36,629 nt of DNA, taken from assembly GCA_039804025.1 (NCBI GenBank), contig JBDRZP010000020.1, forward strand, positions 1-36,629, read 5' to 3'. Below the pieces are notes generated by a model, which saw only the letters and a program-made list of their open reading frames with translations, was not told the origin of the DNA and ran no database searches. Below are positions 27,281 to 34,530 of the stretch, one piece after another. Position numbers and translations under genes: made by a program. This stretch comes from a candidate division WOR-3 bacterium. GTDB lineage: Bacteria > Hydrothermota > Hydrothermia > Hydrothermales > JAJRUZ01. Positions within the stretch are counted from its first letter, which is position 1; the number at the start of each line of letters is the position of its first letter.

Positions 27281-28390
27281 TTATAAATAAAATTCTTTAA
27301 TTTTTTCACAAATAAAATTCACTTCCTCATCTTTTAAATGTGGATGTGAGGGTAGTGAGAGAACTTCTTTAGATATTTTTTCAGTTATTTTTAAATCACC
27401 TTCTTTAAAACCATAAAATTTAGCAGCAGGTTGTAAGTGACAGGGGACTGGATAATGAATACCTGTTTCAATACCTTCTTTTTTTAGATACTCTTTTAAT
27501 TTATCTCTTTCTTTTGTTCTTATGACGAATAGATGATAAACTGAATTTTTTTCTTTATTTTCCTTTATAAGTTTTATTTCCTTTAAACTTTTAAGGTTTT
27601 CGTAATAAATTTTTGCTATTTCTCTTCTCCTTGAATTCCATTTATCAAGATGTTTGAGTTTTAAAAGTAATATAGCAGCTTGAATTTCATCCATTCTAAA
27701 ATTGAAGCCCATAATTTCACTAAAGTAGCTTTTATTCTGCCCGTGATTTCTTAAAAGTTTTATTTTTTCATAAATTTTTTTGTTATTTGTTGAAACCCCC
27801 CCAGCTTCTCCAAGAGCACCGAGATTTTTTGTATAGTAAAAACTGAAAGCGGAAACATCACCTAAATTACCGACTTTTTTATCTCTGTAAATAGCTCCAT
27901 GGGCTTGTGCTGCATCTTCAATTAAAATAATATCTGGGTAATTTTCTTTGATTTTCCAGAATTCATCCATATCACAGGGAGTTCCAAAGATATGTACTAA
28001 AATTATTGCTTTTGTTTTTTTAGTTATTTTTTTCCTTACATCTTCAGGATCAATTGTAAAATCATCTTCTTTTATTTCAGCAAAGATAGGTTTTGCTCCA
28101 ACCATCCAGACAGCTTCAAGAGTTGCAAAAAAGGTAAAGGAAGGTAAAATTACTTCATCATCCTTTTCTACCCCTGCTCCCCTTAAGGCAAGATGTAATG
28201 CATCTGTTCCAGAAGATAAGGAAACAAAATACTTTGTTCCACAATACTCAGCAAATTTTTTTTCAAACTCCTCTTGGTATGGCCCCAGGTATAAATTCAT
28301 TTCAGAAAAAATCTTTTCAAGGAGTGGAAAAAGTTCTTCCTTTATTTCAGTATAAGGTGTATAAAGGTCCTGTAATTTTATTTTTTTCAT
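27281..28390 (-). CDS. DegT/DnrJ/EryC1/StrS family aminotransferase
   Basis: A 369-residue PLP enzyme that aminates nucleotide-linked keto sugars. Landmarks: FVSLSSGTDALHLAL (~57), VILPSFTFFAT (~84), LIEDAAQAHGA (~158, the PLP-binding Asp) and SFYYTKNLGALGEAGG (~185, with the Schiff-base Lys), plus LRNHGQNKSY and MDEIQAAILLLKL. The C-terminal IHYPVPCHLQPA is typical of sugar aminotransferases. The ATG overlaps the stop of the FMN reductase gene by 4 bases. Likely works in surface polysaccharide or glycoprotein sugar synthesis; the exact sugar is unknown. Confidence 0.85.
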   Translation of the reverse strand: MKKIKLQDLYTPYTEIKEELFPLLEKIFSEMNLYLGPYQEEFEKKFAEYCGTKYFVSLSSGTDALHLALRGAGVEKDDEVILPSFTFFATLEAVWMVGAKPIFAEIKEDDFTIDPEDVRKKITKKTKAIILVHIFGTPCDMDEFWKIKENYPDIILIEDAAQAHGAIYRDKKVGNLGDVSAFSFYYTKNLGALGEAGGVSTNNKKIYEKIKLLRNHGQNKSYFSEIMGFNFRMDEIQAAILLLKLKHLDKWNSRRREIAKIYYENLKSLKEIKLIKENKEKNSVYHLFVIRTKERDKLKEYLKKEGIETGIHYPVPCHLQPAAKFYGFKEGDLKITEKISKEVLSLPSHPHLKDEEVNFICEKIKEFYL

Positions 28391-28956
28391 ATTTCATAAT
28401 GATAAGAAAATTTTCTGAGAAAATCTAAAAAATTATTAAAAAATTTTTTTATTTTTTCTTGTGTTTTTCTATCTTTTAATTTAAGATTTTTGTCAAATTT
28501 TTCATCAGCATTAGATATCATGAGGGTTTCAGGGTATATAAAAGCTTTAAGAGAAAAAAGGATATCAATAAGATGTTTCTGTGCTCTTGCTGTTCCAAAA
28601 TTTCCAGTTGTTACTCCGCCTATTGCACATAGTTTACCTTTAAGTGGATTTTCTCCTCTTGAAATCCAGTCTATAACATTTTTTAAAACACCAGAAACTG
28701 AATGATTATATTCTGGTGTTATGAATATCATCCCATCACAATTTTTTATTTTTTTCTTTAATTTGATAACACTTTCGGGTGTTCCACTTTCTTCAATATC
28801 TTGATTAAAAAGAGGTATATTTCCTATTTCAATAATTTCAAATTTTACATCACTGGGACAGTTTTTTTTAATTTCCCTTAATATTCTTCTGTTGAAAGAT
28901 TTCTCTCTTAAACTTCCTGCTATTCCAATAAGTTTAATTCTCCTCTTTTGCTTCAT
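28387..28956 (-). CDS. NADPH-dependent FMN reductase family protein
   Basis: A 189-residue flavodoxin-fold protein: GIAGSLREKSFNRRIL (phosphate loop), IGNIPLFNQDIEE, ITPEYNHSVSGVLKNVIDW and GGVTTGNFGTARAQKHL are the family signatures of FMN-dependent NAD(P)H oxidoreductases (chromate/azo reductase type). It should be soluble and dimeric. It is translationally coupled to the DegT aminotransferase, without an obvious functional connection. Upstream sits the DtxR-like gene on the same strand with 34 bases between. Confidence 0.85.
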   Translation of the reverse strand: MKQKRRIKLIGIAGSLREKSFNRRILREIKKNCPSDVKFEIIEIGNIPLFNQDIEESGTPESVIKLKKKIKNCDGMIFITPEYNHSVSGVLKNVIDWISRGENPLKGKLCAIGGVTTGNFGTARAQKHLIDILFSLKAFIYPETLMISNADEKFDKNLKLKDRKTQEKIKKFFNNFLDFLRKFSYHYEI

Positions 28957-28990: not shown

Positions 28991-29392
28991 CTATTTCAAA
29001 AGAACCTTCTGTTTTTTTATTCTTTCAATAAAGTTTTTAAATTTTTCGATAGTTATACTGTTAAAGATATTTATCATTTTACACGCATCTTCTTCTGCAA
29101 TTTCTTCGGGTATATTTAGAAATTGAGTAAAGAAATTTATAAAGAATTGAGCCTTTTCATAAAAATCCCGAGCGATTTTCTCTCCCTTTTCTGTTAATTC
29201 TACAAATCCATAGTGTTCGTGTAAAATAAGTCCTCTTTTAGCTAATTCCTTTATAGCCTGGGTAGCAGCAGAGGTGGTAACATTAATTCTTAAAGCTATT
29301 TCCTTAACCCTCACAACCTTTCTTTTCTGACTCAGAACATATATACACCTCAGATATCTTATTAGGGATTTAGGTAAATCATTTTTTTTCAT
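28991..29392 (-). CDS. DtxR/MntR-like regulator with degenerate metal site
   Basis: The 133-residue protein has a winged helix (residues ~8-70: LIRYLRCIYVLSQ, VRVKEIALRINVTTSAATQAIKELAKRGLI, HYGFVELTEKGEKIA) that is typical of DtxR/MntR, followed by the dimerisation region (FLNIPEEIAEEDACKMIN). In DtxR the segment would read DAC-x-x-EH with Cys/Glu/His metal ligands, and a His-x3-Glu precedes FL; here EH is IN and the upstream ligands are also hydrophobic or Thr. So it may have lost metal sensing. It has no SH3-like third domain. Strong ribosome binding site (AAGGAGGGG). It follows the FAD/Fe-S gene by 69 bases on the same strand. Confidence 0.75.
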   Translation of the reverse strand: MKKNDLPKSLIRYLRCIYVLSQKRKVVRVKEIALRINVTTSAATQAIKELAKRGLILHEHYGFVELTEKGEKIARDFYEKAQFFINFFTQFLNIPEEIAEEDACKMINIFNSITIEKFKNFIERIKKQKVLLK

Positions 29393-32400: not shown

Positions 32401-32521
32401 TAATAAGTGATGGTATAGAAGCAATATCATGGGAATAAAGCTTCCTTTCAATTTTATCAAGGGAAGCCCTATTTTTAAATTTTTCTATTATTGGTAAATA
32501 TTTTTTTTGTAAGGTTTTCAT
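29462..32521 (-). CDS. FAD-linked oxidase/Fe-S (CCG-domain) oxidoreductase fusion
   Basis: A 1019-residue fused enzyme of the GlcD/D-lactate dehydrogenase type. Residues ~1-465 hold the FAD_binding_4 and FAD-oxidase C domains (VVPRGKATSGYGG, PSSTVGGWFAQGGAGIGS, and a C-terminal NPGKVI). Residues ~500-575 hold two 4Fe-4S motifs (CSQCGYCVEDC and CTTCERCNLRC). Residues ~637-865 contain two CCG domains (GCTASY...ENCCATP...SCPACD and DSCHIGR...SLCCGS...CPCCEF), as in GlpC/HdrB. A Met/Pro-rich tail follows (~900-1019). Substrate is probably a 2-hydroxyacid such as lactate or glycolate, with electrons passed through the Fe-S centres to quinone or heterodisulfide-like acceptors. The ribosome binding site is AAGGAGGGG. 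A clear promoter and two operator-like repeats precede it. Confidence 0.82.
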   Translation of the reverse strand: MKTLQKKYLPIIEKFKNRASLDKIERKLYSHDIASIPSLIKKIFKNPIADLVVQPENEEEIVFLVKWAKENNIPVVPRGKATSGYGGVIPIKRGIVIDFYRMKKIINIDPEKELVTCQPGITWEQLDKELLKHGLTLRLYPTSYPSSTVGGWFAQGGAGIGSYEYGYFGENVKAIKAILPDGTVKKIEEDELDLFYEAEGITGIITEITLKVKPYEKIEVNTFATPDIEKLKSFIEEIIKMDLKIWSLSFINPRMAELKNKAPLNENKKEEKILLPAAYILTIAYRKKDKEEVLNNLKSLANKYEIKILSEEIARHEWENRFKIMVIKRLGPSLVPSEFIIPLENLDKCLKEIENKINKPVVKEAVIIKTGKYGKPEVVVLGFIPSDERKFSYNFVFGLVLTILKIAEKYGGRPYSTGLYFSKKAKKILGEDKVKKLRKFKIEKDPKNLFNPGKVITDGFMSKILTLSEIFEPFIRPFGNYVTLRIGEKPDRDIRGIPADIAFFSYVCSQCGYCVEDCTQFYGRGWESQSPRGKWFFLREFMEGRENFNQKMVDSFLACTTCERCNLRCSANLPIEESWMELRGKLVDEEKKMTFPPFEMMAQALSKEGNIWAGYRKNRAEWFPQDLKEKYYKKEKAPYVYFAGCTASYVEQDIGIGTVRLLDSAGIDFTYLGDEENCCATPMLVAGKWDLFKETMKKNIKAVKDREAKFVITSCPACDMMWRKVYPEWAKKLGIEYDIKVKHYSEVITEKIKKGEFKFENSKDKKIKVTFHDSCHIGRASGIYEEPRELIKANPNVEFVEMKHNRENSLCCGSVLTLIKEPDVAAETGEIRLKEAIEVGAQKVLALCPCCEFQLRVTKEKKNLPLEIVDLARFTAESLGYELPDPNPEVKRGWAVFEKMIKLMTPEGFATLMEEMFPDIINAMPLGMGKIMKFMGKIPLSLYAMKPMFPILFPILMPVIMPKVMPRMLELVKEKIDMPDYMEEQMPELMPKIVDNLMPHMLKDVIPLVSDPLIEYLKN

Positions 32522-32530
32522 TTCCCCTCC

Positions 32531-32548
32531 TTTTAAGTTTACTTAAAA
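32531..32548 (-). promoter_or_regulatory. Operator-like inverted repeat, proximal
   Basis: TTTTAAGT-TT-ACTTAAAA is a perfect palindrome with 8-bp arms between the promoter and the ribosome binding site of the FAD/Fe-S gene. It has the architecture of MntR/SloR-type sites (AGGT-NN-ACCT) with A/T in place of one G/C per arm. A related copy lies 19 bases upstream. Confidence 0.55.
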
Positions 32549-32551
32549 AAG

Positions 32552-32565
32552 TTAAATTTACTTAA
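32552..32565 (-). promoter_or_regulatory. Operator-like inverted repeat, distal
   Basis: TTAAAT-TT-ACTTAA matches the proximal site at 13 of 14 bases and sits at the expected transcription start of the FAD/Fe-S gene, where a bound repressor would block initiation. Confidence 0.45.
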
Positions 32566-32568
32566 TAT

Positions 32569-32597
32569 ATTATAAAATTAATTTTATAAAATTTCAA
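32569..32597 (-). promoter_or_regulatory. Promoter of the FAD/Fe-S oxidoreductase gene
   Basis: On the minus strand TTGAAA (32592-32597), 17-base spacer, TATAAT (32569-32574). Transcription should start near 32562, inside the distal operator-like repeat. Confidence 0.7.
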
Positions 32598-32804: not shown

Positions 32805-32833
32805 TTGAAAAAAATTCTTCGAAAGAATATTAT
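32805..32833 (+). promoter_or_regulatory. msrAB promoter with palindrome in the spacer
   Basis: TTGAAA (32805-32810), 17-base spacer, TATTAT (32828-32833). The spacer contains ATTCTT-CGA-AAGAAT (32814-32828), an inverted repeat with 6-bp arms that a repressor could use. The TTG at 32805 is in frame with msrAB but is the -35 box, not a start codon. Confidence 0.6.
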
Positions 32834-32930
32834 ATTAAATATAAAAATGGAATTTTTTTATTTTTTGCTTTTGTTAATTTTTTTTAAAGATAAAGAAATA
32901 AAAGGAAATTTTCTAAAAGGAGGAGATCCT

Positions 32931-33941
32931 GTGGAAAAAAAATTTAAATTAGCCACCTTTGCAGGTGGATGTTTCTGGTGTATGGAAGAAGCCTTCCATA
33001 AAATTGAAGGTGTTATTGATGTTATTTCAGGTTATACAGGTGGTCAAAAGGAAAATCCCACCTATGAGGAGGTTTCATCTGGTAAAACAGGTCATTATGA
33101 AGCGGTTCAGGTTATCTATGATCCAGAGAAAATTTCATATCAGGATTTATTAGAAGTTTTTTGGTCTCATATAGACCCCACTGACCCTGAAGGGCAGTTT
33201 GCAGATAAAGGAGAGCAGTATAAAACAGCAATTTTTTATCATGATGAGGAACAGAAATTCCTTGCTGAAAAATCAAAGGAATTACTTGAAAAATCCGGTA
33301 TTTTTAAAGATCCAATTGTTACTGAAATAAAAAAATTTGAAAAATTTTATAAGGCAGAGGATTATCATCAGGATTTTTATAAGAAAGAACCGATTAGATA
33401 CTGTTTTTACAAATACTTTTCAGGTAGAGAGAAATTTATATGGAATGTTTGGAGAGAAAAATTGAAAAACTTGAAATACAAAAAAGACCCGAGATACAAA
33501 AAACCTTCAAAGGAAGAATTAAAGAAAAAATTAACAGAACTTCAGTATAAGGTAACACAGGAAAACTATACTGAAAAACCCTTTGAAAATGAATATTATA
33601 AAAATGATAGACCCGGTATTTATGTTGATGTTGTTTCAGGCGAAGTTTTGTTTTCAACTCTTGATCAATTTGATTCTGGATGTGGATGGCCTTCCTTTAC
33701 AAAACCTCTTGAGGAGGATAATTTAGTTTATAAAATTGATACATCCCATAATATGGTCAGGGTTGAAGTAAGGTCCAAACACGGGGATTCCCATCTTGGA
33801 CACTTATTTGATGATGGTCCTCCACCAACTGGATTAAGATATTGTATAAATTCAGCATCTTTAAGGTTTATTCCCCTTGAAGATTTAGAAAAAGAAGGCT
33901 ACGGTGAGTATAAAAAACTTTTTGAAAAGACTAAAAAATAG
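32931..33941 (+). CDS. msrAB: Peptide methionine sulfoxide reductase MsrA/MsrB fusion
   Basis: A 336-residue bifunctional repair enzyme reducing both Met-S- and Met-R-sulfoxide. MsrA (~1-180) has [12 protein letters not shown] with catalytic Cys14, GYTGG and GHYEAVQV. MsrB (~195-336) has the resolving Cys in SGCGWPSF (~250), [10 protein letters not shown] and the catalytic Cys in [11 protein letters not shown] (~303); the zinc CxxC pairs are absent, as in PilB-type fusions. I start at GTG 32931 because a very strong ribosome binding site (AAGGAGGAG) lies just before it. The alternative ATG at 32847 adds 28 residues with a hydrophobic stretch ([10 protein letters not shown]) and could yield an exported form from a nearly leaderless mRNA. 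The 3' end overlaps the MarR gene convergently by 11 bases. Confidence 0.9.
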
Positions 33942-34530
33942 GTTTACTGTAATCACACTTAACTTTTATATCATAGTCAGAAAGTTTTTTGCCTGTAAGT
34001 TTACATAAATGTTTTTTAACAGGGTCAGGAAAGGCATTTTTTACAAAATTTACACAGTTAATACACATCCTTGAAATTCTTATAACGTTTTTATCTTGAA
34101 ATTCTGAAATTATTTTTAGTAAAAGAGTATAGAGTTCTCTTTTATCCCTTAATTTTAATGCTTTTAATCCCTTTGATATTTCGCCTCTGTAACCTGAGAG
34201 AATTTTATTTAAAACTTTTTCACCCCTTTCTGTAAGTTTTAAAAATTTGTATCTCTTATCCTTTTTACTTTTCTCCTCTTTTATCAATCCCTTTTTAACC
34301 AATGTTTTTAGAGCTTCAGAAAGTGTAGCTCTTGTTATCCCCAGTTCCTCGGATATAAAAGATGGTAAGGCTCTTTCTGCTGGATTTTCAGCAAGAAATA
34401 ATATTACCTGAATTCCAAGAGGTGATATACCTGTTTCCTTTGATATATCCCAGAATAAAACCTTTGATAGGTTCGTTATCTTTTCAAATATATATATGAT
34501 TTTTGTATCAAGCTCATTTAAATTTGTCAT
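33931..34530 (-). CDS. MarR-family regulator with C-terminal cysteine cluster
   Basis: A 199-residue protein with a MarR winged helix at ~1-145 ([56 protein letters not shown]). The extra C-terminal ~45 residues contain four Cys (CINC, HLC and KCDYS), forming a zinc- or Fe-S-type cluster found in a subset of MarR proteins. This suggests redox or metal sensing. It is preceded by the small membrane gene on the same strand (40-base gap) and has a TGAGG ribosome binding site. Plausible targets are its own operon, msrAB and the divergent cas3 promoter, but no shared operator was proved. Confidence 0.8.

Follow-up and report, generated by a model that had tools for sequence, protein, structure and literature searches.

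The window, i.e. the whole stretch of 36,629 nucleotides that was analysed, contains an apparent operon in which an oxidoreductase gene (P0002) is followed by a candidate repressor gene (P0001), an FMN reductase-like gene (P0003) and an aminotransferase-like gene, the last being named by eye (Table 1). The initial annotation had placed a DtxR-like gene next downstream of the oxidoreductase. P0001 indeed lies there, and the gap between the two genes is 69 bp. In a comparison of P0002 with NCBIfam models, no cut-off was reached. In the following, the genome of the window is called G000, its sister genome G002 and the third genome of the genus G001. P0002 is 97% identical in G002, and the gene order of the operon is identical there, while G001 is without P0001 and P0002 in their present form. 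Elsewhere in the window, an ORF of 2755 codons encodes many glycine/aspartate-rich repeats which, judged by eye, resemble hemolysin-type calcium-binding repeats, as in a giant surface or secreted protein.

Table 1. Features of the window, with positions counted from its first letter.
Feature	Position	Strand	Remarks
ORF with glycine/aspartate-rich repeats, 2755 aa	2160-10427	-	
P0003, NADPH-dependent FMN reductase-like, third gene of apparent operon	28387-28956	-	PF03358, 141 bits
P0001, DtxR/MntR-fold regulator, 133 aa, candidate repressor	28991-29392	-	PF01325 (HTH) 48.1 bits, cut-off 26; PF02742 (dimerisation domain) 38.8 bits, cut-off 27
Possible separate promoter of P0001, TTGATA-16-TATAAT	29439-29412	-	11/12 consensus positions
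P0002, oxidoreductase, 1019 aa	29462-32521	-	Pfam: FAD_binding_4, FAD-oxidase_C, 4Fe-4S dicluster, double CCG; ATG at 32521
Shine-Dalgarno sequence AAGGAGG	32532-32526	-	
Putative proximal operator TTTTAAGTTTACTTAAAA	32531-32548		perfect 8-bp arms; abuts Shine-Dalgarno; core TTAAGTTTACTTAA at 32533-32546, + strand
Putative distal operator, 18-bp site	32550-32567		core TTAAATTTACTTAA at 32552-32565, + strand; fits TTARN6YTAA
Sigma-70-type promoter of oxidoreductase operon, TTGAAA-17-TATAAT	32597-32569	-	11/12 consensus positions
Further palindrome TATAAAATTAATTTTATA	32571-32588		perfect 8+2+8; within promoter spacer; 7/8 pairs in G002
msrA-msrB-like fusion	32805-33941		
P0004, MarR-like	33931-34530	-	end overlaps msrA-msrB-like fusion
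Near-palindrome TTAGGATTTCTAA	34546-34558		13 bp, core-like, 5-base spacer; leader of P0004

Two palindromes lie between the -10 box and the Shine-Dalgarno sequence of the FAD/4Fe-4S oxidoreductase gene. The distance from the start of TTAAGTTTACTTAA to that of TTAAATTTACTTAA is 19 bp, and the two 18-bp sites are separated by a gap of 1 bp. The proximal copy is built as TTTTAAGT-TT-ACTTAAAA (8+2+8), and the distal copy pairs at 5 of 9 positions over 18 bp. In the sense of the transcript, the order is TTAAGTAAATTTAA (32565-32552), five bases, TTAAGTAAACTTAA (32546-32533), AAGGAGG and ATG. The distal copy begins 3 bp downstream of the -10 box and is expected to span the transcription start. Two palindromes 19 bp apart, a proximal copy with perfect 8-bp arms and a near-consensus promoter directly upstream had all been described from the letters in the initial annotation, and our analysis recovered each of them. 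The further palindrome within the promoter spacer consists of A/T throughout and is probably due to chance.

To estimate the chance expectation, 60,000 leaders were simulated with a Markov model from the locus's own 141-nt intergenic sequence. A single 8+2+8 palindrome was present in 3,313 of these leaders, and the window has three; the tandem TTARN6YTAA-N5-TTARN6YTAA, with its 19-bp period, was found in 18. A lone palindrome is unremarkable in AT-rich DNA, whereas the exact tandem is not. In G000 (2.12 Mb), there were 10 occurrences of TTAARTNNAYTTAA versus 14 for the reversed-pattern control, and thus no genome-wide site family or regulon can be recognised. In addition, TTAARTTTACTTAA had 3 exact matches in G000, one of them within a hemD-looking coding sequence. 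With so few exact matches, and with the looser TTAARTNNAYTTAA sites at control level, a genome-wide motif regulon was rejected. Among the best 30 near-matches, 24 were inside ORFs. Similarly, TTAGN6CTAA was not enriched in G000 (26 versus 44 in the control) or in G002 (24 versus 38), and the scan of locus L204 gave no operator site near feoB of G000. Many random matches had been named beforehand as an outcome that would speak against local control; with 10 loose copies and one exact TTAAGTTTACTTAA, the scan did not refute the idea. Furthermore, the two palindromes described here are the sole close pair among the 10 genomic sites, and the tandem looks like a single-target operator.

Comparison of G000 with G002 showed that the promoter is conserved except for one spacer base. 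Within the 33 bp of the operator, 4 positions are changed, compared with 6 of about 98 columns around it, and in G002 the distal site deviates from the core at one base. Between these two genomes only, the operator is no better conserved than its flanks. Its conservation was therefore dropped as evidence, the comparison being uninformative.

P0001 is the only protein above the PF01325 cut-off in G000 as well as in G002. Its AF2 model (pLDDT 85.3) had its best PDB match in apo-MntR (2hyg; Z 15.9, rmsd 2.7, 126 residues aligned). However, the MntR ligands D8, E11, H77, E99, E102 and H103 correspond to R12, R15, A81, C104, I107 and N108 of P0001. Five of the six metal-ligand positions are thus lost, and the same residues (R, R, A, C, I, N) are found in both G000 and G002. 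Meanwhile, 30 homologues from the phylum read D-E-H-C-E-H at these positions, with single deviations in L151 and L184 and a double deviation in L177. To judge by these residues, P0001 probably has no classical metal site and takes an input other than metal. Its only cysteines, Cys16 (MntR position 12, beside a lost ligand) and Cys104 (MntR position 99), lie in the former metal-pocket region. The HTH of P0001 is identical in G000 and G002, and the five differences are at positions 76, 112, 115, 124 and 132; the gene is therefore no obvious pseudogene. Selection could not be judged by dN/dS, since 3 synonymous and 5 non-synonymous changes are too few.

In MntR, the residues that approach the bases are His35, Pro36, Ser37 and Lys41, according to the part of the report available (PMC11275975), and P0001 has T39, T40, S41 and Q45 there. 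These residues would fit a half-site shift from TTAG to TTAA, but are no proof of it. The TTS of the recognition helix is common to P0001 and the homologues L167 and L168, the latter two having no core upstream. Among the titles and abstract openings that searches of open-access PubMed Central papers listed, we recognised no metal-blind DtxR protein, a scope that leaves its absence from print unproven. In addition, the feo operon of G000:C3 (L204 3000-3653; L035 1222-1875, - strand) includes a DtxR-C/FeoA fusion behind feoB, in which an HTH is not detectable. This fusion is the other G000 protein with the DtxR metal-binding domain, and it is the mirror image of P0001, in which the HTH is kept and the metal ligands are gone.

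The search for P0001 homologues in 147 genomes of the phylum (E 1e-12) yielded 47 matches, the own genome included. Leaders were analysed at 30 homologue loci, with 200 nt upstream scanned. We found the core TTAR-N6-YTAA upstream in 25 of the 30, with 0.03 per 206 nt expected from the flanks. Among the five leaders without a core, the upstream regions of L176 and L178 resemble by eye the 3′ end of a gene for a membrane protein, and may be without a promoter. P0001's own leader, unlike the homologues' promoters, gave no match in the TTARN6YTAA scan. When the leaders were anchored on the first core, 16 of 23 had a second core (at least 6 of 8 fixed positions) at an offset of exactly +19 bp, while the other offsets among the twelve best listed had at most 3 leaders each. 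None of 500 shuffles reached 16 at any offset, and their maximum was 5. Furthermore, a strict search for the tandem in the 147 genomes returned 16 places in 15 genomes, namely the window, 10 places directly before a P0001 homologue (in G068, G069, G070, G072, G073, G074, G075, G120, G124 and G125) and five at other loci. As the reversed control was matched at 25 places, it is the placement of the pattern, and not its number, that is special. It should be noted that the homologues are related, with seven of the ten tandem genomes coming from a single family, and the counts are therefore not independent. Tandem 19-bp cores elsewhere were seen at L189, L190, L199 and L203 (G060, G065, G107 and G132), that of L203 before a large ORF; they are possible further DtxR targets in the phylum.

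Reading of the loci showed that several tandem-bearing homologues head dtxR-feoA-feoB or dtxR-feoB operons. FeoA- and/or FeoB-like ORFs, Pfam-checked for L210 and assigned by eye for the rest, follow the homologue in most loci with enough sequence, the exceptions being L206 and L213. By their gene content, these loci appear to be operons for ferrous-iron uptake that a DtxR-type repressor controls. Two TTAR-N6-YTAA cores at a 19-bp period could thus serve as a rule for spotting dtxR-feo promoters in the phylum. The present tandem has the same cores and period, and it lies in the promoter/leader of an operon that holds the regulator as its second gene. Local control by P0001 is more than a guess, because its homologues in the phylum have both this core and its 19-bp tandem arrangement before their own genes. 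Of the regulator reading in the initial annotation, the type of operator and the neighbouring gene as candidate therefore stand on firmer ground, whereas the metal response that it implied does not agree with the lost ligands.

The oxidoreductase itself has relatives in other lineages, and 80 such loci (L068-L147, 58-65% identical) were collected. No P0001-like gene was present beside the oxidoreductase at any of the 80. The TTARN6YTAA core occurred in one of the 74 leaders with enough sequence, which ruled out that the operator was inherited together with the oxidoreductase. Meanwhile, a cluster of ArsR-like ORFs was found at 19 of the 80 loci. For 52 small ORFs next upstream of the relatives, matches were to the ArsR model in 13, to MarR in 5 and to PocR/HTH_17 in 3, counts which may overlap. 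The oxidoreductase is frequently paired with a small regulator, whose family varies; in the present genus the partner is DtxR-like. With ArsR-, MarR- or PocR-type genes often standing before the relatives in other phyla, it looks as if lineages had recruited their own repressors.

We propose, at a probability of roughly 0.68, that the tandem is a cooperative double operator of the DtxR/MntR type for P0001, a feo-type repressor that came to serve a redox operon and lost its coupling to metal. Binding, repression, cooperativity and the evolutionary route are what we infer here. Two P0001 dimers would occupy neighbouring sites at a distance of 19 bp, covering the transcription start and the Shine-Dalgarno sequence, and would block initiation from the TTGAAA/TATAAT promoter. 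P0001 would in this way act in a local negative loop, repressing the oxidoreductase operon in which it is itself encoded. In evolution, P0001 would descend from repressors which act at the feoAB operons of the phylum through the same tandem operator. In the present genus, recruitment to the redox operon would have gone along with a drift of the half-site from TTAG to TTAA and the loss of the metal-sensing site, and release or activation of P0001 would now depend on a signal other than Fe/Mn. However, several observations count against the double operator: in G002 it is no better conserved than its flanks and has lost a base of the distal core, the possible promoter of P0001 and the TTS homologues L167 and L168 are without a core, and the reversed control outnumbers the strict tandem in the phylum.

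What P0001 senses is less clear. Since the classical pocket can scarcely serve for metal sensing, P0001 may respond to a thiol state, a metabolite or no input at all. A thiol-redox switch, in which Cys16 and Cys104 let P0001 control the flavin/Fe-S redox operon, is one tentative and rather doubtful suggestion; in its bolder form, the DtxR-C/FeoA protein of G000:C3 would be a partner that lends the metal. It is unlikely, although conceivable, that P0001 has no signal at all and is a constitutive or concentration-set repressor, with the arginines at MntR positions 8 and 11 replacing the metals and holding the dimer in its binding form. Both helix 1 carboxylates have indeed become arginines, which are fixed in G000 and G002, and the fold is intact. 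However, helix 6 has lost its partner ligands as well (C104, I107, N108), which leaves little for the arginines to pair with.

Other explanations do without P0001. Chance is an improbable one, by which AT-rich leaders simply yield TTAA palindromes and nothing is bound. The commonness of 8+2+8 palindromes in the window and in the simulated leaders, the lack of genome-wide enrichment and the imperfect conservation in G002 would agree with it, but a tandem at the exact period of the family was rare in the simulation, and it lies on the transcription start of an operon that encodes a member of this very family. We consider it quite improbable that another local regulator binds the palindromes. The foremost candidate would be P0004, a MarR-family member 1.4 kb away, and genes of the MarR or ArsR type stand before homologues of the oxidoreductase elsewhere. 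However, it is the P0001 family that is marked by the 19-bp tandem of TTARN6YTAA in the phylum, and P0004 is a separate gene beyond the msrAB-like gene and a tRNA. The C-terminal tail of P0004 contains cysteines in the arrangement C-x2-C ... C ... C, so that the protein is a possible thiol or metal sensor. Finally, the inverted repeat might form a hairpin in the leader RNA and mask the Shine-Dalgarno sequence, which the proximal repeat abuts. This explanation was rejected as very improbable, since the folding energy (-6.8) equals that of shuffles (mean -6.65, z -0.07) and the leader has no Rfam match.

If the double-operator reading is right, the locus would be a clean natural case of a metalloregulator that has kept its fold, its HTH and its double operator but has lost its metal site and moved to a new operon. 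How DtxR-type repressors acquire new inputs could then be tested on a single small protein and a DNA of 50 bp.

The tandem can be compared with known systems of this family, as far as they are covered by the available parts of the reports cited here. TroR uses an 18-bp dyad at a promoter, and its metal sites are retained (PMC2628430). The IdeR/DtxR boxes have TTAGG..CCTAA half-sites that overlap the -10 box or the start (PMC10317159). However, the IdeR box is one 19-bp palindrome, whereas two 14-bp palindromes at a 19-bp period are present here. In Streptococcus mutans, SloR binds SRE1 at mntH, TTTTAAGCATACTTAACA, which is identical to the proximal copy at 15 of 18 positions, and the sites of SloR are multiple and cooperative, as is proposed for the tandem here (PMC12096823). 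However, SloR is metal-dependent and has an FeoA domain, and SRE1 overlaps the -35 box. The same source describes that SloR failed to bind a look-alike palindrome near the -10 box of mntH (PMC12096823); resemblance is therefore no proof of binding.

The spacing agrees with that of Bacillus subtilis MntR on mneP, where dimers bind cooperatively to 18-bp sites 1 bp apart, i.e. at a 19-bp period (PMC11275975). Together with the likeness to SRE1, this bears out the MntR/SloR-type form that the initial annotation had noticed. P0001 resembles MntR in its fold, its similar length, the lack of an SH3/FeoA domain and the spacing of adjacent sites. However, MntR is Mn-dependent, uses all six ligands and is an activator at mneP. 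The closest likeness is to the dtxR-feo tandems of the phylum (e.g. G068, G069, G070, G074, G075, G120 and G125), which share the 14-bp core, the two copies, the 19-bp period and a homologous regulator with the present locus. In those loci, the sites lie just before the regulator, which comes first in the operon and retains its metal ligands, whereas the present operon has an FAD/Fe-S oxidoreductase as the target, TTAA half-sites and a regulator whose ligands are lost.
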